A stretch of 64,000 bases of DNA from Flammeovirga kamogawensis (lineage in GTDB: Bacteria; Bacteroidota; Bacteroidia; Cytophagales; Flammeovirgaceae), in NCBI RefSeq assembly GCF_018736065.1, contig NZ_CP076130.1, positions 382,001 to 446,000 on the forward strand, given 5' to 3'. The notes beneath the pieces are model-generated. The model made no database searches and was not told the DNA's origin. It saw only the letters and a list, made by a program, of their open reading frames with translations. Shown here piece by piece: positions 41,008-54,940 of this stretch. The translations under genes were made by a program, and so were the position numbers. Position 1 is the first letter of the stretch. Every line of letters starts with the position of its first letter.

Positions 41008-44000
41008 ATGAAAAAAAATTATCTATCAACTTGGCAAAGATTTATCAACTTTGTATTTCTATGTCTACTGTTCTTATCTTTTACAACAGAGGCACAAGAA
41101 CAAAAAATTAAAGGGGTGGTAAAAGACAATACCGGCCAACCACTACCAGGGGTAAATATAAAAATTAAAGGAACCTCTACTGGTACAATTACTAATTTCA
41201 ATGGAGAGTTTTCTCTTAATGGAATCACTCCTTCAGAGACTATCATTTTTAGTTTTATGGGTTTTGAACCTCAAGAAATGGCAGTAGGCACTCAAAAAGA
41301 ATTTGCTATTGTTTTAGAAGAATCTTTAGAGGTACTTTCTGAAATAGTTGTTGTGGGTTATGGTACTCAGAAAAAAGAAAATCTAACGGGTGCAGTAGGT
41401 GTAGTCACTCCCGATAAAGATATTGGCAACCAAGCTGTAACCAATACAGAAACCTTATTACAAGGTAGAATTGCAGGTGTTCAACTTACCCAATCGGGAG
41501 GTAAACCGGGTGCTGGAGCAGAAATAACAATTAGAGGTAATGGTACTTTAAATAATTCTAGTCCGTTAGTATTAATTGATGGTGTTCCTGGTAGTATGCA
41601 AGATATTTTACCTTCTGATATAGAAAGTGTTTCTGTATTAAAAGATGCCGCTTCCGCTTCTATTTATGGTACTAGAGCAGCAAACGGGGTTATATTAGTC
41701 ACTACAAAAAAAGGTGATGATAACGAAAAGGTAAAATTATCATACAATGGTTATGCTGGTTTACAAAAAGCAACTGTACTTCCAGATCTTTTAGATAGCT
41801 GGGATTATATGAATCTCAAAAACGAAGCAAATACAAATGCAGGAAGAGCACCTATCTATACTACTGATGAAATTGATATGGCTAAAGCGGGTTCCAACCC
41901 TTACTATTATGGTAATACAGATTGGGCAGATGAAGTTTTTAAAGATGGTGCATTTTTCCAAAACCATCAGGTGTCTTTAACACAAAAAGTAGGTAAAACA
42001 CAATATTTAGCTTCGGTTGGTTATTTAGATCAAGAAGGTATAATGTATGGTACTTCTGCAGAAAGATTGAATTACAGAATTAACTTAAGAAGTGACCTTG
42101 GAAAAGGTTTTACATTTGGAACAAACTTCTTCGGCGCAGTAAAAAATTCAACAGAATCTGCTGATACAGACGATCAAGGTGTTATGCGTTTAATTGCAAA
42201 TTCCTCGCCGTTAGTGCCTGTTTATAACGAAGATGGCTCTTGGGGTTCTGCATCAGGTAACCCGTACGAGATCAATACTAAAAACCCTCTTTATTATGCT
42301 ACAGAAGCAAGTAGAAAAACAAGCAAATCAAACAAAAATACAATCAACCCCTATTTGGAATTTAACCCAATTGCTGGTTTAACATTCAAATCAAACTTTA
42401 GTTATTCTTATACTTCCGGATTAATAAAAGCACAAAAACACGATTTTCAGTTAACCGATAATGATGGGAATGATTCGGATATTTCAAGGGTTCAAAATTC
42501 GTTACAAGATGTTACTAATGAATACGAAACAGTTCAATGGGAAAACACTGTAAATTATGCCAAAGAGTTTAATAAGCATAGCATCAATTTACTTGCTGGT
42601 ACAACCATGAACTCTTATGCACATAGATGGTCTAAAGTTAAAGTGACAGATTTACCAAGTAACGACCTTGGACAAATTGGTTCTGGTAGTAACCCTACTG
42701 TAGATGGTACTTTTAACGAAAGTAGATTATTGTCTGTATTTGGTAGAATTCAATATAACTTTGACGATCGCTACCTTTTAGAAGGTAATATTAGAACAGA
42801 TGGTTCTTCTAAATTCCCTGCCAATAATCGATATGCAATTTTCCCTGCCGTTTCTGCTGGCTGGATTTTCTCTAACGAAGCGTTTCTTGAAGGTGCCGAA
42901 AACTTCCTTTCTTTTGGTAAAATTAGAGCAAACTGGGGGCAATTAGGTAACGATAAAATTGGGTACTATCCTTATTCACAAACCTACACGCCTACTGATG
43001 GTTATCCTTTTGATGGATCTTCTATTTACAATGGTGGTTTAGCAGTAACAGACCTTGCTAACCCAGATATTAAATGGGAAACAACAACGTCTTATGGTAT
43101 TGGTGCTGACTTTGGTTTTTGGAACGATAAGTTATCCATCACAGCAGATTACTTTGTAAAAGATACTGATGATATTCTTCTAAAACTTCCTATACCTGGT
43201 GCAACAGGTGTATCTAACCCTGCCTATCAGAATGCAGGTAGAGTTAGAAATACTGGCTGGGAACTTGCCGTTAATCACTACAATTCTATTGGAAACTCTG
43301 GTATTAAATACAATGTAGGATTTAATGTAACCACTATTCAGAACGAGATTATTGAAATGCAAGGAGAATCTCAATATCCTAATAACAGACAAATCAATAC
43401 AGAAGGTCAACCTATTGGTTCTTTCTATGGTTACAACAATACTGGTATTTATAGAACAAAAGAAGACTTAGAAAAGTACGCGTATATAGATGGACAAACG
43501 CCTCAACTAGGTGATTTAATTTACGAAGATATTAATGGTGATGGTATTATTAATGATGAAGACAGAACCATTATTGGTAACCCAAACCCTGAGTTTATGT
43601 ACGGCATTAACCTCGGTATTTCTTACAAAGGTTTTGATGTAAAACTATTCTTCCAAGGTGTACAAAATATAGATATTTACTCTTCGTCTACGGGTAACCA
43701 TAGTGGTAGTGGCAATAACTTAATGAACTGGACTACCGATTGGATGGATAGATGGACTCCAGAAAATACAGATGCTTCTAAACCAAGATTGGGGAATGTA
43801 AATAACGAACAAATTTCTTCATTCTGGGTGGAAGATGCTTCTTACTTCAGATTAAAAAATGTGGAAGTGGGGTATTCTTTCAACGAAAATGTGTGTAGAA
43901 AATTAAAACTATCAGGTTTGCGTATTTATACCAATTCAACCAATCCTCTTACTTGGTCAAAAATAGACCATTGGGATCCTGAACGTTACGCAAACCAATC

Positions 44001-44061
44001 TAGAAACGAGGCCTATCCTCAAACAACAACATTAACTTTTGGTACAAACATCACCTTCTAA
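41008..44061 (+). CDS. susC: SusC-type TonB-dependent outer-membrane transporter
   Basis: A 1017-residue SusC/RagA-family transporter importing oligosaccharides through the outer membrane. Signal peptide ending FTTEAQ. A carboxypeptidase-like regulatory domain covers about 30-115 (IKGVVKDNTGQPLPGVNIKI). The TonB-box-like VVVGYGTQKKEN precedes the plug at about 120-235 (ALIRG-type segment AEITIRGNG, LVLIDGVPGSM, DIESVSVLKDAASASIYG, NGVILVTTKKG). The beta-barrel fills the rest, ending in TLTFGTNITF. The following susD starts 10 bases later. It is the only susC in the window, so it must serve the operon and probably the wider locus. The upstream CAAATTARTCA repeats suggest HTCS activation. Substrate cannot be read from the sequence. 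Confidence 0.95.
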   Translation: MKKNYLSTWQRFINFVFLCLLFLSFTTEAQEQKIKGVVKDNTGQPLPGVNIKIKGTSTGTITNFNGEFSLNGITPSETIIFSFMGFEPQEMAVGTQKEFAIVLEESLEVLSEIVVVGYGTQKKENLTGAVGVVTPDKDIGNQAVTNTETLLQGRIAGVQLTQSGGKPGAGAEITIRGNGTLNNSSPLVLIDGVPGSMQDILPSDIESVSVLKDAASASIYGTRAANGVILVTTKKGDDNEKVKLSYNGYAGLQKATVLPDLLDSWDYMNLKNEANTNAGRAPIYTTDEIDMAKAGSNPYYYGNTDWADEVFKDGAFFQNHQVSLTQKVGKTQYLASVGYLDQEGIMYGTSAERLNYRINLRSDLGKGFTFGTNFFGAVKNSTESADTDDQGVMRLIANSSPLVPVYNEDGSWGSASGNPYEINTKNPLYYATEASRKTSKSNKNTINPYLEFNPIAGLTFKSNFSYSYTSGLIKAQKHDFQLTDNDGNDSDISRVQNSLQDVTNEYETVQWENTVNYAKEFNKHSINLLAGTTMNSYAHRWSKVKVTDLPSNDLGQIGSGSNPTVDGTFNESRLLSVFGRIQYNFDDRYLLEGNIRTDGSSKFPANNRYAIFPAVSAGWIFSNEAFLEGAENFLSFGKIRANWGQLGNDKIGYYPYSQTYTPTDGYPFDGSSIYNGGLAVTDLANPDIKWETTTSYGIGADFGFWNDKLSITADYFVKDTDDILLKLPIPGATGVSNPAYQNAGRVRNTGWELAVNHYNSIGNSGIKYNVGFNVTTIQNEIIEMQGESQYPNNRQINTEGQPIGSFYGYNNTGIYRTKEDLEKYAYIDGQTPQLGDLIYEDINGDGIINDEDRTIIGNPNPEFMYGINLGISYKGFDVKLFFQGVQNIDIYSSSTGNHSGSGNNLMNWTTDWMDRWTPENTDASKPRLGNVNNEQISSFWVEDASYFRLKNVEVGYSFNENVCRKLKLSGLRIYTNSTNPLTWSKIDHWDPERYANQSRNEAYPQTTTLTFGTNITF

Positions 44062-44071
44062 TCCTTTTAAA

Positions 44072-45610
44072 ATGAAAAAAATATTAATTACACTATTAGG
44101 AGTTGCATGTTTTTCGTGTAGTAACTACCTAGATCTACAAGACGGAAATACATTAAATCAAGATTCTTACTGGAAAACAGAAGAACATTTAGAGTTAGCT
44201 GTTAATGCGGCTTACGAGAGTTTAACGCCAGAAGAACTGTACGCAAGAGGATATAGAGATTTAGATTGTATTAGCGATAATGGATACAACGAATGGAACT
44301 GGATGAAATATTGGGATATTAGTGTTGGTCAGCACAACCCTTCTACAGATAGAATTAGTTACGTTTGGAACGATAACTACAAAGGTATTAGAAGAGCCAA
44401 CGAAATTCTTGATAATGCTCCAGGCATGGGTATTGATCAAGAGGTAAAAGATACAGCTATAGGCGAAGCTCTCTTTCTACGTGGTTTATTTTACAACAAC
44501 CTTTCTATTCTTTATAATAATGTTCCTTTAATCCTTTCCGTAGTTTCTCCAGAAGGAGCTCGTATTGAAAAATCTTCTAAAGAAGAAGTTGTTGCACAGA
44601 TTATTGACGACTTAACACAGGCTATCGATCTTCTTCCAACTAAAGGCGAAACACCTGGTCGTATTACAAAAAATGCTGCCATTGCTCTTAGAGCAAGAGT
44701 TTACCTTTACAACCAACAATGGGAAAATGCAGCTAATGACTGCGAAGAGGTAATGACTTCTAATAAATACAGTTTAGTTGATGATTACAGTATGTTATTT
44801 TCTGATGAGGGACAAAACAGTACTGAGTCAATCTTCTCTGTTCAATTTGTTTCTAATATGAAAGCTGGAGAACAGTTTAGTGGCACCTATAAAAAGCAAC
44901 CTCAATCGCATTTTGGTGTACTTCCAAACTTAGTATATGATTATTATTGCAAGCATGGCTTAAAAGCTGAAAACTGTCCTGATGCTACTCCTTTTTCTGT
45001 ATGGTCAGACGAGAAAGGTTTACCATTATCAAAAGCTGAACTAGAAGCTAAAGGGTTAAGTATTTTTGATTATTGGGCTGAATTTGAGAACAGAGATCCA
45101 CGTTTAGATTTTTCTGTATTAAGAGGTGGAGAGCCTTGGTTAGACGCTGATAAATGGGACAATTCTGTAAAAGCTACTCGCTATGGTATTCAGAAATACA
45201 TCAGAAAAGAACTTGGATTATATACAGATGGAAATAAGAATTTTATGATTCTACGCTATGCTGATGTTTTACTAATGTATGCAGAAGCGAAAAATGAACT
45301 TAATGGACCGTCAGCTGAAGTATTTAATGCATTAAGTCAGGTAAGAAGAAGAGTAAATATGCCTGATGTAGACAATACATTAAATCAAGAACAACTTCGT
45401 GAGGAAATTAGACACGAAAGAAGAACAGAATTAGCTTTTGAAGGGCTTCGTTATTTTGATGAGTTAAGATGGAAAACTGCTAAAAATGATTTTGAAAACA
45501 ATGTAATTTTTCACGAAAGAAACTTTGATGAAAACAAACATTATTGGTGGCCATTACCACAAACTGAAATTGATAGAAACCCGAACCTATCACAAAACCC
45601 GGGTTGGTAA
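44072..45610 (+). CDS. susD: SusD/RagB-family glycan-binding lipoprotein
   Basis: A 512-residue outer-membrane lipoprotein pairing with the transporter upstream. I choose the ATG at 44072, which gives the signal MKKILITLLGV and lipobox CFSC; an in-frame ATG at 44039 overlaps susC. The protein begins with the typical NYLDLQDGNTLNQDSYWKTEEHLELAVNAAYE (SusD N-terminal helices; quoted in parts: NYLDLQDGNT, YWKTEEHLEL), with TPR-like helices (GEALFLRGLFYNNL, ALRARVYLYN), and ends with RHERRTELAFEGLRYFDELRW and YWWPLPQTEIDRNPN. It binds glycan at the surface and closes the SusC pore. It is followed by a hairpin and then the GH128 gene, in the usual susC-susD-enzyme order. Confidence 0.95.
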   Translation: MKKILITLLGVACFSCSNYLDLQDGNTLNQDSYWKTEEHLELAVNAAYESLTPEELYARGYRDLDCISDNGYNEWNWMKYWDISVGQHNPSTDRISYVWNDNYKGIRRANEILDNAPGMGIDQEVKDTAIGEALFLRGLFYNNLSILYNNVPLILSVVSPEGARIEKSSKEEVVAQIIDDLTQAIDLLPTKGETPGRITKNAAIALRARVYLYNQQWENAANDCEEVMTSNKYSLVDDYSMLFSDEGQNSTESIFSVQFVSNMKAGEQFSGTYKKQPQSHFGVLPNLVYDYYCKHGLKAENCPDATPFSVWSDEKGLPLSKAELEAKGLSIFDYWAEFENRDPRLDFSVLRGGEPWLDADKWDNSVKATRYGIQKYIRKELGLYTDGNKNFMILRYADVLLMYAEAKNELNGPSAEVFNALSQVRRRVNMPDVDNTLNQEQLREEIRHERRTELAFEGLRYFDELRWKTAKNDFENNVIFHERNFDENKHYWWPLPQTEIDRNPNLSQNPGW

Positions 45611-45630
45611 TTCAGCAGAAAAAGTTAGAA

Positions 45631-45660
45631 AGAGCACTACTTCATCTTTTGTAGTGCTCT
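45631..45660 (+). terminator. Intercistronic hairpin after susD
   Basis: AGAGCACTAC (45631-45640) pairs perfectly with GTAGTGCTCT (45651-45660). No T tract follows, so it may attenuate or process the message, lowering enzyme-gene expression relative to susC-susD, rather than stop it. Confidence 0.65.
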
Positions 45661-45697
45661 AATGTAAACTGTAATCATTGACTAAAAAGCATTCGAA

Positions 45698-48079
45698 ATG
45701 AAAAATAGATTTATAAAATTATTTACACTATTAGTTTCCCTTTCTTTAATCATTATAAGTTGCGACTTGGATGATATGATTAATAACCGACCTGTACCTG
45801 GTGAGGAAGAAGTAGAAGAAACAATATCGTATCAGAAAAAAGGTTTTGGACAAACTGTAAAAAGTCCTGTTTGGAGCAATTGTGTTTCACTTTCGCTTCC
45901 ATATTGGCATTACTCATGGGGTAGTGAATACCCTGAAGGTATTCCAGAAAATGTAGAATTTGTGCCTATGATTTGGGGACGTTCTAATGTTGAAGAAAAA
46001 GTAGCAGTCTTAAAGAAGTTAGCCGAAGAAGGAAAAATTACTCATTTACTTGGCTTTAACGAGCCAGATAAAGAAGATCAAGCACACATGACAGTAGAAG
46101 AAGCAATTGCTTTATGGCCGTTGTTAGAATCTGTTGGTGTCCCTTTAGGCTCTCCTGCTCCTGCCGCTATCGGAAGTGGTTGGTTAGATGATTTTATGGC
46201 ACAAGCCAATGCAAAAGGTTTGCGCGTAGATTTTATTTGTATGCACCGCTATGCAGATTCTATCGACCCTTTAAAATGGATGGAAGTGTTCCAAAGAACA
46301 AACGAACAATACAATTTACCTATTTGGATTACAGAAATGGGGTTAGCAGATTGGACAGCCACATCTCCAGAAACCAATAAGCGAACAAAAGAGCAGGCTC
46401 ATACACTAATGGAAGAGCTACTACCAATGATGGATGCAGCAGATTATATCCAAAGATATGCATGGTTTGATGGTGGTAGAGCAAAAAATCAAGCGGCATT
46501 GCATATCTCAGCAATTTTTGAACAAAACTCTGATATTTTAACGGACTTAGGTATTTTATATGCGGAACATGATGCTAATATTAAAACAGGTGGCGGTAAT
46601 AGTGTTGTTCCTGAAGCAGGAGATTACGGACTTGTTATTGATGGTGGTTTTGAACTAAGAAATGCCGATGGTGCATGGGGTGGTTACGATAATGTTTTTA
46701 CAGAAGAAACTGCCGCTAAAAAAGGGCTTGTTGTTGGTAAAATACAACCTGATAAAAATGGAGATGGAGGTTCTCTACTACAAGAGATTGAAGTAGAACC
46801 AAATACAACATATGCATTTTCTTACTCGACAAAATGGGCAGAAAAGCCTGACGGTACTATCAAAGTACAAGTACAAGACCGTACACCAGATACTAAACCA
46901 GAAGCTGGATGGGAAAGGTTGTATTTTGAAGATATTGCTACCGATACGGAATGGGCAGATACTAATGGTACATTTACTACGGGTGCAACTACCTCTAAAG
47001 TCTTTATCATTTTTTATAAAGGAGGCACAAACGACAATACAAACGCAGGTTTAACGACACTATATATTGACGAAGTTTCATTATTTAAAACTGAAAGTAG
47101 TGAACCTACTCCTGAGCCTAACCCTGTACCCGACTCTAAATTAATTGTAGATGGTGGTTTTGAAAACATGACTTCTGGTCCATTAAGTGGAACTGAAACT
47201 CCTTGGTATGGGTTTGATGGCAACATTGTAGAAAATATTGCAGAAGCTAAAACAGGTAGTAAGTACGTGCAATTAGCAAAAGATAATAATAAAGATGGTG
47301 CATTCTTAAATCAAGAAATTACCAGTCTCAATGGAAATAAAATCTATACTGTAAACCTTAGTACAAAATGGTTAACATCACCTTCAACAAGTGGTTTAGT
47401 GAAAGTATTTGATATTACTGGCGGTCAGAAAGTAGAACTATTAAGTACTACTTATAATGATGCCACTGTATGGACAGATAATACATTTGATTTTCAAACT
47501 ACAGCAACTACAACAGCAATAAGAATTACGATAATTAAACCAGGTGGAGAAAGTGAAAATACTGTTTTAATTGATGATGTTATTATGGAGGAAACAGGTA
47601 CTGTGGATGTCCCTCCTGTAGTAATTGATTTAGTAAGCGATGGTGATTTCGAACAGCTTACTGCAGGTGCATTAAATGCAACTTCAACACCTTGGTCGGG
47701 ATATGCATCTGGTTCTGCAGATGTTATTACTTCTGCTATTGCAACTGCTTATGAAGGTGAACAATGTGGCCGACTTAAAAAAGATGATGCCTCTATAATT
47801 CAAACCATTACTGTAGAAGAAGGAAAAACGTATACCTTCTCTTTATATTCTAAATGGATAGACGGTGCAGGTAAAGACTTAAAATTTACTATCAAACCTT
47901 CTAACAATAATGCATTAAAGTATCAGGAAACTATTGTTGAAAGTACAGATTGGAGCTTAACTACTTTTGAGTATACTGTTCCTGCAGGACATACATCAAT
48001 TACTTTCAATATTTTTAAAGGTAAAGATACCGCAGGTGGTGTGTTCTTATTAGACAACGTTTCAGTAATCGAAAAATAA
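45698..48079 (+). CDS. GH128-like beta-glucanase lipoprotein with three C-terminal binding modules
   Basis: A 793-residue surface lipoprotein (IIISC, Cys22). Residues about 45-290 match the GH128 (Asl1-like) TIM barrel: LLGFNEPDKEDQAHM with acid/base Glu122, SPAPAAIGSGWLDDFM, FICMHRYAD, and PIWITEMGLADW with nucleophile Glu213, then IQRYAWFDG. GH128 enzymes act on beta-1,3-glucan. Three beta-sandwich modules of about 150 residues follow, each starting with (L)xxDGxFE: near 308 (LVIDGGFELRN), 482 (LIVDGGFENMT) and 645 (LVSDGDFEQLT), and ending in a LLDNVSV/LIDDV strand, like CBM4/9-type domains. They likely hold the enzyme on its glycan. Finding GH128 in a sulfated galactan locus is unexpected. 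Either this operon targets a beta-glucan or mixed polymer, or the enzyme has a new specificity. Confidence 0.8.
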   Translation: MKNRFIKLFTLLVSLSLIIISCDLDDMINNRPVPGEEEVEETISYQKKGFGQTVKSPVWSNCVSLSLPYWHYSWGSEYPEGIPENVEFVPMIWGRSNVEEKVAVLKKLAEEGKITHLLGFNEPDKEDQAHMTVEEAIALWPLLESVGVPLGSPAPAAIGSGWLDDFMAQANAKGLRVDFICMHRYADSIDPLKWMEVFQRTNEQYNLPIWITEMGLADWTATSPETNKRTKEQAHTLMEELLPMMDAADYIQRYAWFDGGRAKNQAALHISAIFEQNSDILTDLGILYAEHDANIKTGGGNSVVPEAGDYGLVIDGGFELRNADGAWGGYDNVFTEETAAKKGLVVGKIQPDKNGDGGSLLQEIEVEPNTTYAFSYSTKWAEKPDGTIKVQVQDRTPDTKPEAGWERLYFEDIATDTEWADTNGTFTTGATTSKVFIIFYKGGTNDNTNAGLTTLYIDEVSLFKTESSEPTPEPNPVPDSKLIVDGGFENMTSGPLSGTETPWYGFDGNIVENIAEAKTGSKYVQLAKDNNKDGAFLNQEITSLNGNKIYTVNLSTKWLTSPSTSGLVKVFDITGGQKVELLSTTYNDATVWTDNTFDFQTTATTTAIRITIIKPGGESENTVLIDDVIMEETGTVDVPPVVIDLVSDGDFEQLTAGALNATSTPWSGYASGSADVITSAIATAYEGEQCGRLKKDDASIIQTITVEEGKTYTFSLYSKWIDGAGKDLKFTIKPSNNNALKYQETIVESTDWSLTTFEYTVPAGHTSITFNIFKGKDTAGGVFLLDNVSVIEK

Positions 48080-48086
48080 AAAATAT

Positions 48087-48120
48087 AAAGGGGAAGTGTT
48101 TAAACCATCACTTCTCCTTT
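48087..48120 (+). terminator. Intercistronic hairpin after GH128
   Basis: AAAGGGGAAGTG (48087-48098) pairs with CACTTCTCCTTT (48109-48120) with one G-U pair. It starts 8 bases after the stop, and the next ATG is 12 bases beyond it. The T tract is short, so partial termination is expected. Confidence 0.65.
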
Positions 48121-48131
48121 ATCCCTAATCA

Positions 48132-50588
48132 ATGACTTTCATGTTAAGACAAAAATTAAATTTACTAATAGTTGTACTAATTAGTTATACGTGTGGCTGT
48201 AACAAAATTACACTAACAGAAACCAACCAAAGAGAAGAAATTAGACTTACTGACAATTGGTTATTTCAATATAACGATACTTTATCAACCCAGTGGGAAG
48301 AGGTAAACGTTCCTCATGATTGGGCCATCTCTATGCCTTTCGATAAAATGATTGACATGCAAGAAGTTGTTGTTTTAGAGGATGGTGAACGAGTACCAAA
48401 ATTACGTACAGGAAGAACGGGTGCTTTACCACACATTGGCAAAGGTTACTACAAAAAGGAACTCCATTTCAATCAAAAAGATAAGGATAAGAAAATTTTT
48501 ATTCAGTTTGATGGAGCAATGAGTCATGCAAAAGTGTACCTCAATAAACAGTTTGTAGGTACAAGGCCTTACGGGTATTCTTCGTTTGAATTTGACCTTA
48601 CCCCTTTCATCAATTTTAATAAGAAAAACCTATTAGAAGTTCACCTAGAAAATAAACCATTATCATCTAGATGGTATCCAGGAGCTGGCATCTATAGAGA
48701 TGTGCGTATTGTAAAAACCAACCCTATTTATGTAGAAAATTGGGGAACGTATATCACCACATCAAACAGTACTAAAAACACAGGAGTTGTTACCATTAAA
48801 ACTTCTGTAATTAATAGCTTAAAAAAGAAAAAAGAAGGTAAACTAATTCATTCTATTTTTTATAATGATAAGCGTGTCGGAGAAGAAACTACTGCCCTTA
48901 CTTATCAGCAAGAAAAAAATACAAACAGTACAAACATAACAATTGATGCACCTCATTTATGGTCGCCATCAACACCAAATTTATACCATGTAATTACACA
49001 AGTTGTTGTAGATAACAAAGTAATTGATTCTTATAAAAGTCAGTTTGGTTTTAGAACAATCGAATTTACAAATAACGACGGCTTCTTCTTAAATGGAAAA
49101 CCATTAAAGTTTAAGGGTGTCTGTTTACATCATGACTTAGGACCATTAGGTGCTGCTCATAATTATTCTGCATTAAAACATCGATTATTAAAAATGAAAG
49201 AGATGGGGGCAAATGCAATAAGATCAACACACAATCCATCTGACCCAAGTCTTGTGCAATTGGCAGATGAAATGGGCTTTCTTTTTATTGCAGAAGCTTT
49301 TGATGAATGGGAAGAACCTAAAACTGAGAATGGATACAATACTTTGTGGCATGAATGGGCTGAAAAGGATTTGGTTTCCTTAATCCATAGAGATCGAAAT
49401 CACCCTTCGTTAATAATGTGGTCTATTGGTAATGAGGTTAGAGAACAGACCAAAGAAAACGGTGCAGAAAACACAAAATTCTTATCTGATATTTGCCACA
49501 GAGAAGACCCTACCCGACCAACTACGGCAGGGTTTAATAATTGGAAAGGTGCAATAAATAATGGACTTGCAGACGCAGTAGATTTACCAGGTTGGAACTA
49601 CAAACCAAACTTGTATAAACGAATACACAAAGAGCATCCTGATTGGAAAATGTATGGTAGCGAAACAGCATCAACGGTGAGTACTAGAGGGGAGTATTTC
49701 TTCCCTGCCAAAGAAGGAAAGCATAAAAAAAGACCAAATTTACAATCTAGTGCCTTCGATTTAGATTTTCCAAGTTGGGGGCAAACGCCAGATAGAGAAT
49801 TTAGAGCACAAGATCAGAATAAATTTATTATGGGTGAATTTGTTTGGACAGGCTACGATTACCTTGGCGAACCAACACCGTACAACGAGGAATGGCCTAC
49901 TAAAAGTTCATACTTTGGTATAATTGATTTAGCAGGAATCCCAAAGGATAGATTTTACCTATACAAAAGTAAGTGGTCTCAAGAAAAAGTACTGCACTTA
50001 CTCCCACATTGGAATTGGAAGAAAGGTCAGCATGTGAGTGTACATTGCTATACCAATTATGATAGAGCAGAACTTTTCTTAAATGGTAAAAGTTTAGGTG
50101 TTCGATCAAAAGACACTTCTAAATTATACGATTCTTACCGTCTAAGATGGGATGATATCATTTTTGAAGAAGGCGAATTAAAGGTAGTTGCCTTAGATGG
50201 TGAGAATAATCCAATTGCAGAAACAAGTAAACAAACAGCAAAAAATCCTTATCAATTAAAAATTGATGTAGACAGAGAAGAAGTACTCGCAAACGGAGAA
50301 GAAATTGTTTATGCTACCGTCTCTGTAGTAGATAAGAATGGGAATTTATGCCCTCGAGCAGCAAATTTAGTACAATTTTCTGTAGAAGGGAACGGGAAAT
50401 TAAGAGCCGTAGGAAACGGGAATCCAACATCTTTGGAATCATTTGTAGCTCCAAAACGCCTTGCTTTTAACGGTAAATGTGTGGCAATTTTACAATCCTC
50501 AAAAACACAAGGTCAATTTACATTAACAGCTAAAGCAGATGGTCTAAAACCAGCCACAGTAACAATACAAACTGCACTCAGCTTATAA
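48132..50588 (+). CDS. GH2 beta-galactosidase-like lipoprotein
   Basis: An 818-residue GH2 enzyme with a lipoprotein signal (SYTCGC). Starts at the ATG at 48132; a second in-frame ATG three codons on is possible. N-terminal jelly roll (EVNVPHDWAISMPF, GYYKKELHF, AKVYLNKQFVGTRPYGY), Ig-like domain, then the TIM barrel (LKFKGVCLHHDLGPLG, ANAIRSTHNPSDP). Catalytic residues: acid/base Glu435 in WSIGNEVREQ and nucleophile Glu511 in MYGSETAST. Later parts include FVWTGYDYLGEPTPY and a C-terminal Ig-like domain (VLANGEEIVYATVSVVDKNG). It likely removes beta-linked galactose (or a similar beta-sugar) from imported oligosaccharides. It is more like classical GH2 than the one at 29365, which keeps LNE at the acid/base site, so the two probably have different substrates. 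Confidence 0.88.
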   Translation: MTFMLRQKLNLLIVVLISYTCGCNKITLTETNQREEIRLTDNWLFQYNDTLSTQWEEVNVPHDWAISMPFDKMIDMQEVVVLEDGERVPKLRTGRTGALPHIGKGYYKKELHFNQKDKDKKIFIQFDGAMSHAKVYLNKQFVGTRPYGYSSFEFDLTPFINFNKKNLLEVHLENKPLSSRWYPGAGIYRDVRIVKTNPIYVENWGTYITTSNSTKNTGVVTIKTSVINSLKKKKEGKLIHSIFYNDKRVGEETTALTYQQEKNTNSTNITIDAPHLWSPSTPNLYHVITQVVVDNKVIDSYKSQFGFRTIEFTNNDGFFLNGKPLKFKGVCLHHDLGPLGAAHNYSALKHRLLKMKEMGANAIRSTHNPSDPSLVQLADEMGFLFIAEAFDEWEEPKTENGYNTLWHEWAEKDLVSLIHRDRNHPSLIMWSIGNEVREQTKENGAENTKFLSDICHREDPTRPTTAGFNNWKGAINNGLADAVDLPGWNYKPNLYKRIHKEHPDWKMYGSETASTVSTRGEYFFPAKEGKHKKRPNLQSSAFDLDFPSWGQTPDREFRAQDQNKFIMGEFVWTGYDYLGEPTPYNEEWPTKSSYFGIIDLAGIPKDRFYLYKSKWSQEKVLHLLPHWNWKKGQHVSVHCYTNYDRAELFLNGKSLGVRSKDTSKLYDSYRLRWDDIIFEEGELKVVALDGENNPIAETSKQTAKNPYQLKIDVDREEVLANGEEIVYATVSVVDKNGNLCPRAANLVQFSVEGNGKLRAVGNGNPTSLESFVAPKRLAFNGKCVAILQSSKTQGQFTLTAKADGLKPATVTIQTALSL

Positions 50589-50613
50589 TTAGTAAATACC
50601 AAAAGCTAACATA

Positions 50614-50643
50614 GGAGAGCATATTTAGTGCTCTCCATTTTTT
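50614..50643 (+). terminator. Intercistronic terminator-like hairpin after GH2
   Basis: GGAGAGCA (50614-50621) pairs perfectly with TGCTCTCC (50629-50636), followed by ATTTTTTT. It has the full shape of a terminator although GH16 follows 43 bases later in the same direction, so read-through or a separate promoter is implied. Confidence 0.75.
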
Positions 50644-50685
50644 TCACAAGTGCCTATTATATGGTACTATTAACCCTAAATTGAA

Positions 50686-51975
50686 ATGAAATACTATTTA
50701 TCTCTCACAGTACTCCTTTTTTGTATAGGATGCCAATCTGTAAAAAGTGTATTGAACGAAATTGAACAAGATGCAGATGTAAAAACAACTCATTTTCAAC
50801 CTACAATTAACAACCAATCCAACACCAAAACACTCTTAAACGACCAATGGGTAGAAGTATGGTCTGATGAATTTGATGGCACAACACTAAATGCATCAAA
50901 GTGGACTAAAACCGTAAGTACGAAAAGCAGAGCTGCTAGACCTGATCTTGGCATTAACTCTTGGTTTTGGGTAGAAGATCATGCATGGCTAGATGGCAAT
51001 GGACATTTAATGCTTAAAAGTTCTAAAGTAACAGATGATAAAATGTATTGCGGAAGTATTGATTCGGAAAATAAATTTGAGCCAAAATATGGATTCCTAG
51101 AAGCTCGAATAAAAATTGCCACTACAGCAAAAGGCAACCACACTGCCTTTTGGTTACAAGGGCACAACCAAGGTAATGTAGACGGTACTGCAAACGATGG
51201 TGCTGAGATAGATATTTTTGAGTCGGCTTGGTTAACAGAAACCACAAAAGCGGTAATTCATATTGATGGATATGGAAGTGACCATAGAGCAAATACAAAG
51301 AAATATACTACGCCAAATATTCATGATGGTTACCATATTTATGGATTGAAATGGACTGCCGATAAACTGGAGATTTATTATGATGGTGAACTCAAAACAA
51401 CTTACGAAGGGGTCTGGGTTCCTCAAGTAAAAGAATGGCTTTGGTTGTCTGTAGGTGCTAGTTTTGCCGATGGTGATTTTAGGTCTCAACCAATAGGCGA
51501 CCTTTCTGTTGCAGAGGTAGATTATGTCAGAGTATGGGAGAAAAATCCTAATTTTAATCAGCCTACTACGCAAGATACTATCCGTTTAAGAAACAGAGGT
51601 TCTAATTATTATTTTAGAGTGAAAGCTGAAGGAGATGATGCTGAAGTTGAACAAACAAATGATTTTAGACAAGGCGATTGGACGTTTTGGAGCTTAGTGC
51701 AAAACAACAATTTTTATCATATTAAATGCGAAGGCACACAGAAGTTTATTAGAGCAATTGATAATACAGAAAGTGCTAACCTATATACAAAACCACTTGA
51801 TAATGTTGGAAGTTGGACACAATGGGAATTTATCTATGTCTCGGAAGGGTATTACCTCATTAAAAACAAAGAAACAGGAAAATACCTTAGAGCAAGTTCT
51901 TCAGAATATGACACTCCTATTGTAATTAGTGCAATTGCTGATGAATTCTCTCAGTGGAAAATTGAACGCTTATAA
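50686..51975 (+). CDS. GH16 lipoprotein with C-terminal beta-trefoil
   Basis: A 429-residue surface lipoprotein (FCIGC, Cys16). A GH16 domain covers about 55-290: WSDEFDGTTLNASKW, YGFLEARIKIA, GAEIDIFESAW with Glu174, Asp176 and Glu179, IHIDGYGSDH, and VAEVDYVRVWEKN. Residues about 298-429 form a beta-trefoil (DTIRLRNRGSNYYFRV, GTQKFIRAIDN, YYLIKNKETGKYLRASS), of the ricin/CBM13 or fascin kind, three units of about 43 residues. The GH16 subfamily is not clear: the loop after the catalytic strand (WLTETTKAVIHIDGYG) differs from both galactan-type GH16 proteins in this window and from typical laminarinases I can recall. It closes the susC operon. Confidence 0.8.
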   Translation: MKYYLSLTVLLFCIGCQSVKSVLNEIEQDADVKTTHFQPTINNQSNTKTLLNDQWVEVWSDEFDGTTLNASKWTKTVSTKSRAARPDLGINSWFWVEDHAWLDGNGHLMLKSSKVTDDKMYCGSIDSENKFEPKYGFLEARIKIATTAKGNHTAFWLQGHNQGNVDGTANDGAEIDIFESAWLTETTKAVIHIDGYGSDHRANTKKYTTPNIHDGYHIYGLKWTADKLEIYYDGELKTTYEGVWVPQVKEWLWLSVGASFADGDFRSQPIGDLSVAEVDYVRVWEKNPNFNQPTTQDTIRLRNRGSNYYFRVKAEGDDAEVEQTNDFRQGDWTFWSLVQNNNFYHIKCEGTQKFIRAIDNTESANLYTKPLDNVGSWTQWEFIYVSEGYYLIKNKETGKYLRASSSEYDTPIVISAIADEFSQWKIERL

Positions 51976-52086: not shown

Positions 52087-53490
52087 GGGAGTGTACCACA
52101 AACTGTGTAAACTCTCGAATCTTGAAATGTGAGTAAGTCATATTTCTCCCTTTAAAGAGAAAATTGACTTACTCACTGTTCAAGGTCAACTTGACTCTTT
52201 CAATTAAGTGTACAGTTTATTTAATTTAGAATTTAAAACTGATACACCATGAACAAAGAAGATTTATTAAACGACAACTTTTTAAAACAATTCAAGTCAG
52301 CAGAAGATTTAAGTTCCTTCATGAAGCAACTTCAAAAAAGAGCTTTGGAGAAAATGCTTGAAGGTGAAATTGAAGCCCATCTTGGTTATCAAAAACATGA
52401 AAAGTCAGAGAATTCTAATTCTCGAAATGGCTATACCCAAAAGACTATCAAAAATGAATATGGTGAACAAGAAATCAATGTCCCAAGAGATAGAAGTGGC
52501 TCGTTTGAACCTGCAATTGTTCCTAAAAGGAAGAATATTGCTCAAGGTATTGAAAGTCTAGTGATCTCACTTTATGCCAAAGGTATGAGCGTATCTGATA
52601 TCGAAAATCAGATCAAAGAACTTTATGACTTTGAAGTATCGGCAGCGACTATATCAAGAATTACAGCTTCAGTAATTGAAGATATAGAAGTATGGCATAA
52701 ACGTCCTTTAGAGCCTGTTTATCTTATCGTTTGGATGGATGGTATCGTTTTTAAAGTGCGTGAAAACTCCAAAGTAATCAATAAAACTATCTATTTAGCC
52801 GTAGGATTACGTACTGATGGCAAAAAAGAAGTATTAGGTATGTGGCTTGGGAAAAATGAATCATCTGCATTTTGGATGACAGTTCTCACTGATATACAGA
52901 CACGTGGAGTTGAAGATATATTGATCACATCAACTGATAATCTCAATGGTTTTACAGAAACAATTAAAGCTGTTTTTCCTGAATCTTCTACTCAAATTTG
53001 TATCGTTCATCAAATTAGAAACGCTTGCAAATATGTAGTCTGGAAAGATAGGAAAGCGTTCACAAAAGACATGAAAGATATCTATGGAGCTCCAAATATT
53101 AATGCAGCTAAAGAAGCTCTTGATTTTCTTGAAAAGAAATGGGGTGATAAATATGGATATGCGATCCAAAGTTGGCGAAATAACTGGGATGAATTAACAG
53201 TATTCTTTGAATTTCCTCTTGAAATCCGTAAAATTATCTATACGACCAATCTGATAGAAAATCTGAATGGTAAAATTAGAAAATATACAAAGAACAAATT
53301 ATCCTTCCCAACGGATGATGCAGTTAAAAAATCTGTTTTTTTAGCCTTGCAAGAAGCAACAAAGAAATGGACAATGCCTATCAGAAACTGGGGAATAATT
53401 TTGAACCAATTTCAGGTATTATATAAAGAAAGGATCAGGTTTTAAACCCAATCCTCACTTGTAATACTTACACACTTAGTGAAAGAGTGT
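52087..53490 (+). mobile_element. Intact IS256-family insertion sequence, about 1404 bp
   Basis: The element carries one transposase gene and is bounded by imperfect inverted ends: left gggagtgtaccacaaactgt (52087 on) and the right end 53468-53490, which on the minus strand reads tttcactaagtgtgtaa in the matching part, about two-thirds identity over 24 bases with the inner cac(a/t)aa(c/g)tgtgtaa best kept. A 9-bp duplication flanks it. It lies in an intergenic region just past the susC-operon terminator, so no gene is broken. The perfect duplication points to a fairly recent insertion, and the intact gene to possible current activity. Confidence 0.88.
52249..53445 (+). CDS. IS256-family DDE transposase
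   Basis: A 398-residue Mutator/IS256-type transposase, full length for the family. The N-terminal helical region contains [15 protein letters not shown] and [14 protein letters not shown]. The zinc-free HTH-like part ([19 protein letters not shown]) follows. The RNase H-fold catalytic core has Asp164 ([10 protein letters not shown]), Asp230 ([10 protein letters not shown]) and Glu337 ([12 protein letters not shown]). [15 protein letters not shown] between the second Asp and the Glu is the conserved family segment (C/D-x2-H-x3-N-type). No frameshift or stop interrupts it, so it appears functional. It transposes by DNA cut-and-copy using the ends described for the element. Confidence 0.95.
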
Positions 53491-53499
53491 CATACTTAT
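53491..53499. repeat. Right 9-bp target duplication (catacttat)
   Basis: Same nine bases as at 52078-52086, directly after the right inverted end. Removing the element and one copy restores an uninterrupted intergenic region between the GH16 terminator and the serpin gene. Confidence 0.85.
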
Positions 53500-53578
53500 A
53501 AAAAGAGAGGAACAACCTTTTTGTTCTTATTAATGTCAATACTACTATACTCTTCAACCTTCTTAACAAATTTACATA

Positions 53579-54940
53579 GTGAAAAGAACTACCAAATATC
53601 TCATTTTTCTTTACTTGCTCATTGCAATTTTAACGAATAGTAATGCACAAAAAAGCAATCTAAATAACCCCATAAATTCGTTCTCCTTTGATGTATATAA
53701 TGATATTAAATCGGATAGCAACAACATCTTTTTTTCACCTTACAGTATCTATTCTACTTTACTATTAGTTCATGAAGGAGCTAATGGAAAAACGAAAGAG
53801 AAACTAGAGCAAATCCTTTATATAAAGAACAATTCCATTCCCAAATTTATTGATAATACAGAAATAGCCGAAGTTAAAATTGCAAACTCTATTTGGCTTG
53901 ATAAAAAATATAAATTTGATAAAAAATACAAGAAAGCAATAACAGCTAAATATGATGTAGCTTTGGAAACTATTGATTTTGAAAATCCCAACTCTGCGAT
54001 TGCAATTATAAACCAATGGACTGCTGAAAATACAAACCAGAAAATAAATAAACTACTTAGTCCAAATGATATCGATTCACTAAATAAAGCTATTTTTCTA
54101 AACACAGTTTACTTTAATGGAGAATGGAAAAAACAATTCAACAATAAAAACACCACCATTTCTACCTTCTTTAAGAATGAAAATGAAAACTATAAAATCG
54201 ACTTTTTAAATACTAAAGAAGGACTACAATATTATGCTAATGAAGAACTCCAATTTATAACTAAACCATATAAAGATTCAGGACTTTCGTTTTGTGTAAT
54301 CCTCCCTTTACAACTTAATGGTTATAAAGAAATTGAAGATAAATTAAGCCATCAGTTTATCCATAAATTATTAGATAACATGACTTTTGAAACAATAAAG
54401 TTATCTCTACCTAAGATAAAATTAACAGGAGATTATAATTTAGAAGAAACAGAATTATTTTCTGATTTAAACAGCTATTCCGATTTTTCAATCATTAAAA
54501 ATCAAGCACTAAATAGTGTAAACATTAAACATAAAAGCCTTTTAGAACTTAATGCAAAAGGAACAGTTGCAATTGCAGCTACAGCAATGAAAATAATAAT
54601 TACAGGGGTACCACACGTGATTGATTTTAACGCAAACCATCCATTTATATTTTTTATTATGGATAATAAAACGCAATCAATAGTATTTATGGGAAGGTAT
54701 AATCAACCTCCTCAAGAAAAGAAGACTTCTACTAAAGAAATCTCGTTTAGTAAAACTACTAATCATTATACTAAAGAACCTTTGTATTTACTAGATAACA
54801 AAAAAATAAAAACCTTGGAGGGAATCGATGCTCAAGATATTGAATCCATAAATATTTTACCGGTTGCGGAAGCAACTGATAAATATGGAGATAGTCGTAA
54901 AAATGGAGCTATTATAATTACAACTAAACATAAAGAATAA
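53579..54940 (+). CDS. Secreted serpin with TonB-receptor plug-like C-terminal tail
   Basis: A 453-residue exported serine-protease inhibitor, starting at a GTG at 53579 because it leads straight into the signal peptide (ending TNSNAQ). The serpin fold covers about 25-385: NNIFFSPYSIYSTLLLVHEGANGKTKEKL, IANSIWLD, FLNTVYFNGEWKKQF (helix and sheet A; quoted in parts: FFSPYSIYSTL, AIFLNTVYFNGEW), VILPL, and a reactive-centre hinge GTVAIAATAMK with Gly328 and Thr329, then HPFIFFIMDN. The small residues at the hinge fit an inhibitory serpin. The likely P1 is among IIITGVP, so target specificity is open. Residues about 400-453 do not belong to a serpin: PLYLLDNKKIKTLEGIDAQD, IESINILPVAEA, YGDSRKNGAIIITTKHK closely mirror the plug of SusC-type receptors (compare LVLIDGVPG, DIESVSVLKDA, NGVILVTTKKG in this window's SusC). 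The junction is in frame and shows no disruption. Confidence 0.85.
   Translation: MKRTTKYLIFLYLLIAILTNSNAQKSNLNNPINSFSFDVYNDIKSDSNNIFFSPYSIYSTLLLVHEGANGKTKEKLEQILYIKNNSIPKFIDNTEIAEVKIANSIWLDKKYKFDKKYKKAITAKYDVALETIDFENPNSAIAIINQWTAENTNQKINKLLSPNDIDSLNKAIFLNTVYFNGEWKKQFNNKNTTISTFFKNENENYKIDFLNTKEGLQYYANEELQFITKPYKDSGLSFCVILPLQLNGYKEIEDKLSHQFIHKLLDNMTFETIKLSLPKIKLTGDYNLEETELFSDLNSYSDFSIIKNQALNSVNIKHKSLLELNAKGTVAIAATAMKIIITGVPHVIDFNANHPFIFFIMDNKTQSIVFMGRYNQPPQEKKTSTKEISFSKTTNHYTKEPLYLLDNKKIKTLEGIDAQDIESINILPVAEATDKYGDSRKNGAIIITTKHKE

Follow-up and report, generated by a model that had tools for sequence, protein, structure and literature searches.

What does a piece of a TonB-receptor plug do at the end of a protease inhibitor? 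The question was raised by a gene in a stretch of 64,000 nucleotides from Flammeovirga kamogawensis (contig NZ_CP076130.1, positions 382,001 to 446,000; the whole stretch is called the window here). The gene lies at 53579..54940 on the + strand, starts with GTG, and encodes in a single unbroken frame of 453 codons a serpin with a C-terminal half-plug tail (453 aa). Sequence comparison showed that the tail contains only the C-terminal half of the plug of a TonB receptor, and that this half is of the kind borne by M56/BlaR1 peptidases and other envelope proteins rather than borrowed from a SusC plug. The fusion is a new domain combination of known parts and is neither chance nor error. What is new is the serpin bearing a half-plug; the module itself is a common accessory on other envelope proteins.

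The tail comprised residues 399-453 (54773..54937, + strand; KEPLYLLDNKK...NGAIIITTKHKE) and had the order strand-strand-strand-helix-strand, as delimited by TIGR04056, the structural model and Foldseek. It was preceded by a linker of residues 378-398 (54710..54772, + strand), most of which was predicted to be disordered (pLDDT <50 over 383-398). A preliminary description of this DNA had already noted a plug-like C-terminal tail, which stood, but its start was better placed at residue 399 (KEPLY), since residues ~378-398 were mostly disordered linker. The NCBIfam profile TIGR04056 (SusC/RagA) matched residues 396-451 at plug positions 149-205 with E=1.2e-9, TIGR04057 also matched the tail (E=2.6e-5), and the tail matched solved SusC plugs by sequence at E=3e-5, so the suggested resemblance to plugs was significant by profile search. 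The Pfam Plug family PF07715 remained below threshold on the tail because the second plug half alone is present. In the AlphaFold model, pLDDT was 92-93 over residues 401-430, and the tail was predicted to fold like TonB-receptor plugs. When the tail was modelled alone with its plug homologues, the top PDB matches in Foldseek were TonB-dependent transporters. The best SusC structures superposed on the model at 1.6-1.7 Å over 52-53 columns, in agreement with the anticipated likeness of the predicted structure to the SusC plug; their E-values were only 0.02-0.09 because the domain is short. Within the host genome (G000), 43 places matched the tail at E<=0.01 and, besides the tail itself, all of them were in SusC-sized frames (~1000 aa). 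The match to the SusC of the window (41008-44061) noted earlier was real, with 37% identity at E=4e-4 to its plug core (G000:C3:423557-423712). The first plug half (QG..GV / IRG), which precedes the core in the host's SusC proteins, was missing from the serpin tail, and no β-barrel sequence followed the tail.

To which family of plugs does the half-plug belong? Against a profile of M56-type modules taken from 76 other hosts the tail reached 64.7 bits, compared with 47.7 bits against one of 28 SusC plugs (most of them from the host genome); the highest score among 2000 shuffled versions of the tail was 10.7 bits. In a tree built without the 76 profile hosts, the SusC and DUF4139 plugs fell on one side with support of 99/100, and the serpin tails and the M56 modules fell on the other side. 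Two points count against this assignment: the gap between 64.7 and 47.7 bits is somewhat flattered, since the serpin tail was part of the query alignment used to gather the hits for the M56-type profile, and the grouping of the serpin tails with the M56 modules was weak (93/70) in a tree of few columns. The C-terminal half-plugs on M56/BlaR1 proteins of Flexithrix dorotheae, Yeosuana, Algibacter and Winogradskyella are the same half of the plug with the same extent, running from PLY..DG to KNG(V/A)I.ITTK and then stopping, and are likewise C-terminal. The serpin tail also has the features by which the M56-type module was defined, a half-plug of ~53 residues at the C-terminus without the IRG half. 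It differs in being carried by a soluble serpin, where the others sit on membrane metallopeptidases, in its single copy, and in an identity of 45% to the nearest family member. The SusC/RagA plug (PF07715, TIGR04056) shares the homologous core and the predicted fold, whereas the serpin tail is without the N-terminal half of the plug, the CarboxypepD_reg domain and the barrel, and lies on the other side of the tree. The earlier view that the tail mirrors the SusC plug core was thus right about its derivation from a plug and had to be corrected in that only half a plug is present, whose nearest relatives by profiles and tree are of the M56/BlaR1 type. Recent capture of a SusC fragment by the serpin was rejected as the simplest account, given a tail that is nearer to the M56-type modules and ends at the same point. 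An explanation of the tail as a type IX secretion system (T9SS) C-terminal domain or as a lipoprotein anchor was also ruled out by the lack of a Por_Secre_tail match and of a lipobox.

To see which other proteins bear the module, M56-type modules were aligned with the serpin tail, and the alignment served as the query against a genome collection of 84,980 species; it returned 257 relatives, of which the best 80 were kept. These best 80 of the 257 were mostly long proteins with one to several half-plugs, mostly C-terminal and often in tandem, and the last half-plug was often 0-3 residues from the stop. Among 42 hosts scanned for domains, 29 were M56 peptidases and 31 matched Plug; TonB_C, CarboxypepD_reg, M48 and Metal_resist (ZraP-like) domains were also found, and none of the 42 was a serpin. 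An M56 peptidase of Flexithrix dorotheae (G011), which belongs to the same family as the host, bore three tandem modules, and an M56 peptidase of another relative (G013) bore four. The C-terminal, often tandem half-plugs on Bacteroidota M56/BlaR1 peptidases were collected as loci L190-L269, L120 and L173, in which some hosts also had TonB_C or CarboxypepD_reg. The maximum was seven matched half-plug segments on one protein (L221). Small soluble hosts were found as well: L254 and L268 were ZraP/Metal_resist-like periplasmic proteins of 246-264 aa with the half-plug at the end. Within the genus, DUF4139/MuiA-family proteins (L090:1277-3160(+), L091 and L092, from G003, G008 and G010) carried a nearly complete plug inserted in the middle of the protein. 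These are likewise non-transporter hosts of a plug-like module in near relatives; unlike the serpin tail, the module lies inside the protein in these cases, has the IRG part and clusters with the SusC plugs.

The rest of the protein is probably a secreted serpin of inhibitory type, with inhibition itself a prediction. A Sec signal peptide was predicted at 53579..53647 (+ strand; MKRTTKYLIFLYLLIAILTNSNA, then cleavage before Q) without a lipobox cysteine; it was read from the sequence, and the model showed a helix at residues 4-20. The serpin domain was assigned by Pfam and Foldseek to residues 32-377 (53672..54709, + strand). The PF00079 match covered profile positions 3-370 of 370 with 278 bits (E=1.5e-82), and the best Foldseek matches of the AlphaFold model across the PDB were all serpins (E ~1e-30). 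The hinge was of the inhibitory type (G328-T-V-A-I-A-A-T-A), with Gly at P15 and Ile at P11 as the single bulky residue. The complete secreted serpin with the hinge GTVAIAATA that had been described previously was therefore borne out. The reactive-centre loop ran from P15 Gly328 to the predicted P1 Thr342 and P1' Gly343 (54560..54607, + strand), which were placed by spacing in comparison with α-1-antitrypsin. The complete fold, the hinge pattern GT-x-A-x-A-A-T-A and the secretion signal are features in common with the serpin family (PF00079, MEROPS I4), such as Tannerella forsythia miropin (PDB 5NCS), conserpin and chloropin. Compared with that family, the protein adds a half-plug absent from the other sampled serpins and lacks a segment at helix D. 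In the alignment with 37 other Bacteroidota serpins, ~13 residues were absent after residue 91, at the helix D position (13 columns occupied in >70% of the aligned serpins), and 4 further residues were absent after residue 291. The serpin fold does not need helix D. A Pfam scan of the 453-aa protein gave no match to Por_Secre_tail, the T9SS C-terminal domain, or to the M56 metallopeptidase domain PF05569.

How widespread are tailed serpins? Searches at the level of family, order, class and phylum, extended to two neighbour groups, covered 1131 distinct genomes, of which 222 bore serpins (distinct genomes counted from the tables), and bacterial serpins were common in the sampled genomes of the phylum. 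The large searches scored the four best candidates per genome, from which a very diverged second serpin could escape. The tailed serpin was found in 2 of the 222 serpin-bearing genomes, those of the host and of a congener (G006). No match from any other genome reached the tail; the furthest query residue was 406, in matches running past a stop. Among the serpin frames that were fetched, the next longest C-terminal extension had 33 residues and no similarity to the tail, and a direct search of the genome contigs with the whole 453-aa protein gave no match. A tail conserved in serpins was ruled out by its absence from all other sampled serpins. Nothing relevant on a serpin with a plug tail was found in the literature, so the earlier statement that no other serpin was known to carry one stood for the literature and the genomes searched, except for the one sister genome. 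The tail was absent from every other serpin of the phylum sample apart from the broken copy in G006, which goes in part against the earlier interpretation. The second serpin of the host (G000:C1:534780) was 31% identical and had no tail; it was conserved in G006, with 87% DNA identity over 5.5 kb.

The copy in the congener (G006:C1:4131689-4133030, L082) allowed the history of the gene to be considered. A block 96.4% identical to G006 by DNA alignment (53511..54928, + strand) did not extend beyond the serpin gene and the 68 bp before it, and the immediate gene context of the G006 copy differed from that of the host. The background DNA identity between the two genomes was 85-88% at the flanking amidohydrolase and two other loci (three loci only). 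The dS between the host and G006 was 0.068 for the serpin part and 0.091 for the tail, compared with 0.78 for the neighbouring amidohydrolase, and the contrast between 0.068 and 0.78 shows recent movement of the gene between lineages. The gene thus spread from one to the other after their split, or both received it from a common donor. The G006 copy looks like a single-gene lateral transfer, because the identity is confined to the gene and the immediate context is different. The dN/dS was ~0.29 for the serpin and 0.42 for the tail (eight changes only), so there was some constraint, at least on the serpin. The start codon was ATG in the G006 copy and GTG in the host. An insertion sequence (IS) at 52087..53493 (+ strand), with a Mutator/IS256-type transposase (PF00872) at 52249-53445 and an 8-bp target duplication (ATACTTAT) read from its ends, was inserted 85 bp upstream of the serpin. 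There were 4 identical copies in the host genome; the insertion is recent and the element was recently active. The IS does not seem to have brought the serpin in, because no such IS was found upstream of the G006 copy. It lies outside the serpin gene and may have an effect on its expression.

What could the fusion do? Serpins as a family trap proteases covalently by the reactive loop. We propose, with about an even chance of being right, that a half-plug of the M56/BlaR1-associated kind binds another protein and thereby retains this inhibitory-type serpin in the periplasm or outer envelope. The signal peptide would export the protein by Sec, and the serpin half would trap a serine (or cysteine) protease by its reactive loop; the predicted P1 Thr342 would suit a protease accepting small or aliphatic residues. 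The half-plug would be the tether that holds the inhibitor close to envelope proteins, either in the periplasm or at the outer membrane, a role presumed to be the same on M56 sensors and periplasmic ZraP-like proteins, and a binding or tethering module is the most economical view because the same module occurs on unrelated envelope proteins. Because the tail folds separately and is joined by a flexible linker, loop insertion should proceed unhindered. The gene is regarded as a young, mobile single-gene acquisition. Several points weigh against this proposal. The “tether” is a guess from architecture, and the literature searched, including that on M56 with plug, contained no function for a half-plug module on any host. 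Inhibition appears less certain with ~13 residues missing at helix D and 4 near residue 291. The G006 copy was a pseudogene, with a premature stop and with frameshifts both in the serpin part and close to the tail's end; with this broken copy, the GTG in place of ATG and the IS close upstream, the gene may be dispensable or decaying in the host too. A more specific version, which we think improbable, is that half-plugs serve in Bacteroidota as a general tag for envelope targeting, by which proteins are brought to one shared partner (a TonB-linked or M56 sensing complex). The serpin would then have borrowed this tag to place a suicide inhibitor there, for instance in order to protect or regulate proteolytic signalling of the M56 type or the uptake machinery of the outer membrane.

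The same points of decay lead to an account that is unlikely on the whole and deserves real weight, in which the tail is a harmless passenger and the whole gene a recently acquired, dispensable islet that is being lost. The presence of the tailed serpin in only 2 of 222 genomes, the several disabling changes in the G006 copy, the IS 85 bp upstream, the GTG start where G006 has ATG, and a tail dN/dS based on only 8 changes are consistent with it. However, the serpin dN/dS was 0.29 despite one broken copy in the pair, which indicates constraint at least part of the time, and the host frame was fully intact, with a tail that stopped precisely where half-plugs on other hosts naturally end. The preliminary description had suggested that the tail might attach the serpin to a barrel of the SusC type or another TonB-linked partner, with the inhibitor displayed at the outer-membrane surface; such docking is possible but not favoured, and we consider it very improbable. 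The predicted plug-like fold and the abundance of SusC genes in the host genome would fit such docking, whereas the tail is only half a plug, without the first half or a barrel, and is nearer to the M56-type modules than to SusC plugs, and the barrel of a SusC protein already has a covalently attached plug. The proposed surface position was not supported either, as the signal peptide is plain and, with no lipobox or T9SS tail, a periplasmic protein would have no evident way out. We give just as little credence to a role of the tail within the serpin, where it would pack on the body near the breach and tune the stability of the metastable state like the C-terminal tail of thermopin: thermopin-type tails are short extensions and not folded domains, whereas here a 16-residue disordered stretch is followed by a separately folded unit, and the module occurs on unrelated hosts without a serpin. 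That a sequencing frameshift or misassembly joined the serpin to a SusC fragment has a negligible probability. Nothing was found in its favour, no barrel sequence follows the tail, and the serpin-tail junction is in one frame here and, with few substitutions, in frame in G006 too, which ruled out the frameshift between two genes considered earlier as well as a misassembly.

Though the serpin fusion is an isolated and rare occurrence, it points to a module recurring C-terminally, often in tandem, on many Bacteroidota envelope proteins, such as M56 sensors, TonB_C proteins and ZraP-like chaperones. A soluble inhibitor with one half-plug would be a simple handle for finding the binding partner of the module, and the fusion raises the broader question of the role of C-terminal half-plugs. 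In the window, the region upstream of the IS (41008-51975) contained a cluster that looked like a polysaccharide utilisation locus, which included the SusC-type transporter (41008-44061), a glycoside hydrolase that was GH2-like by eye (48132-50588), and a GH16 enzyme with a ricin-type lectin domain (50686-51975).
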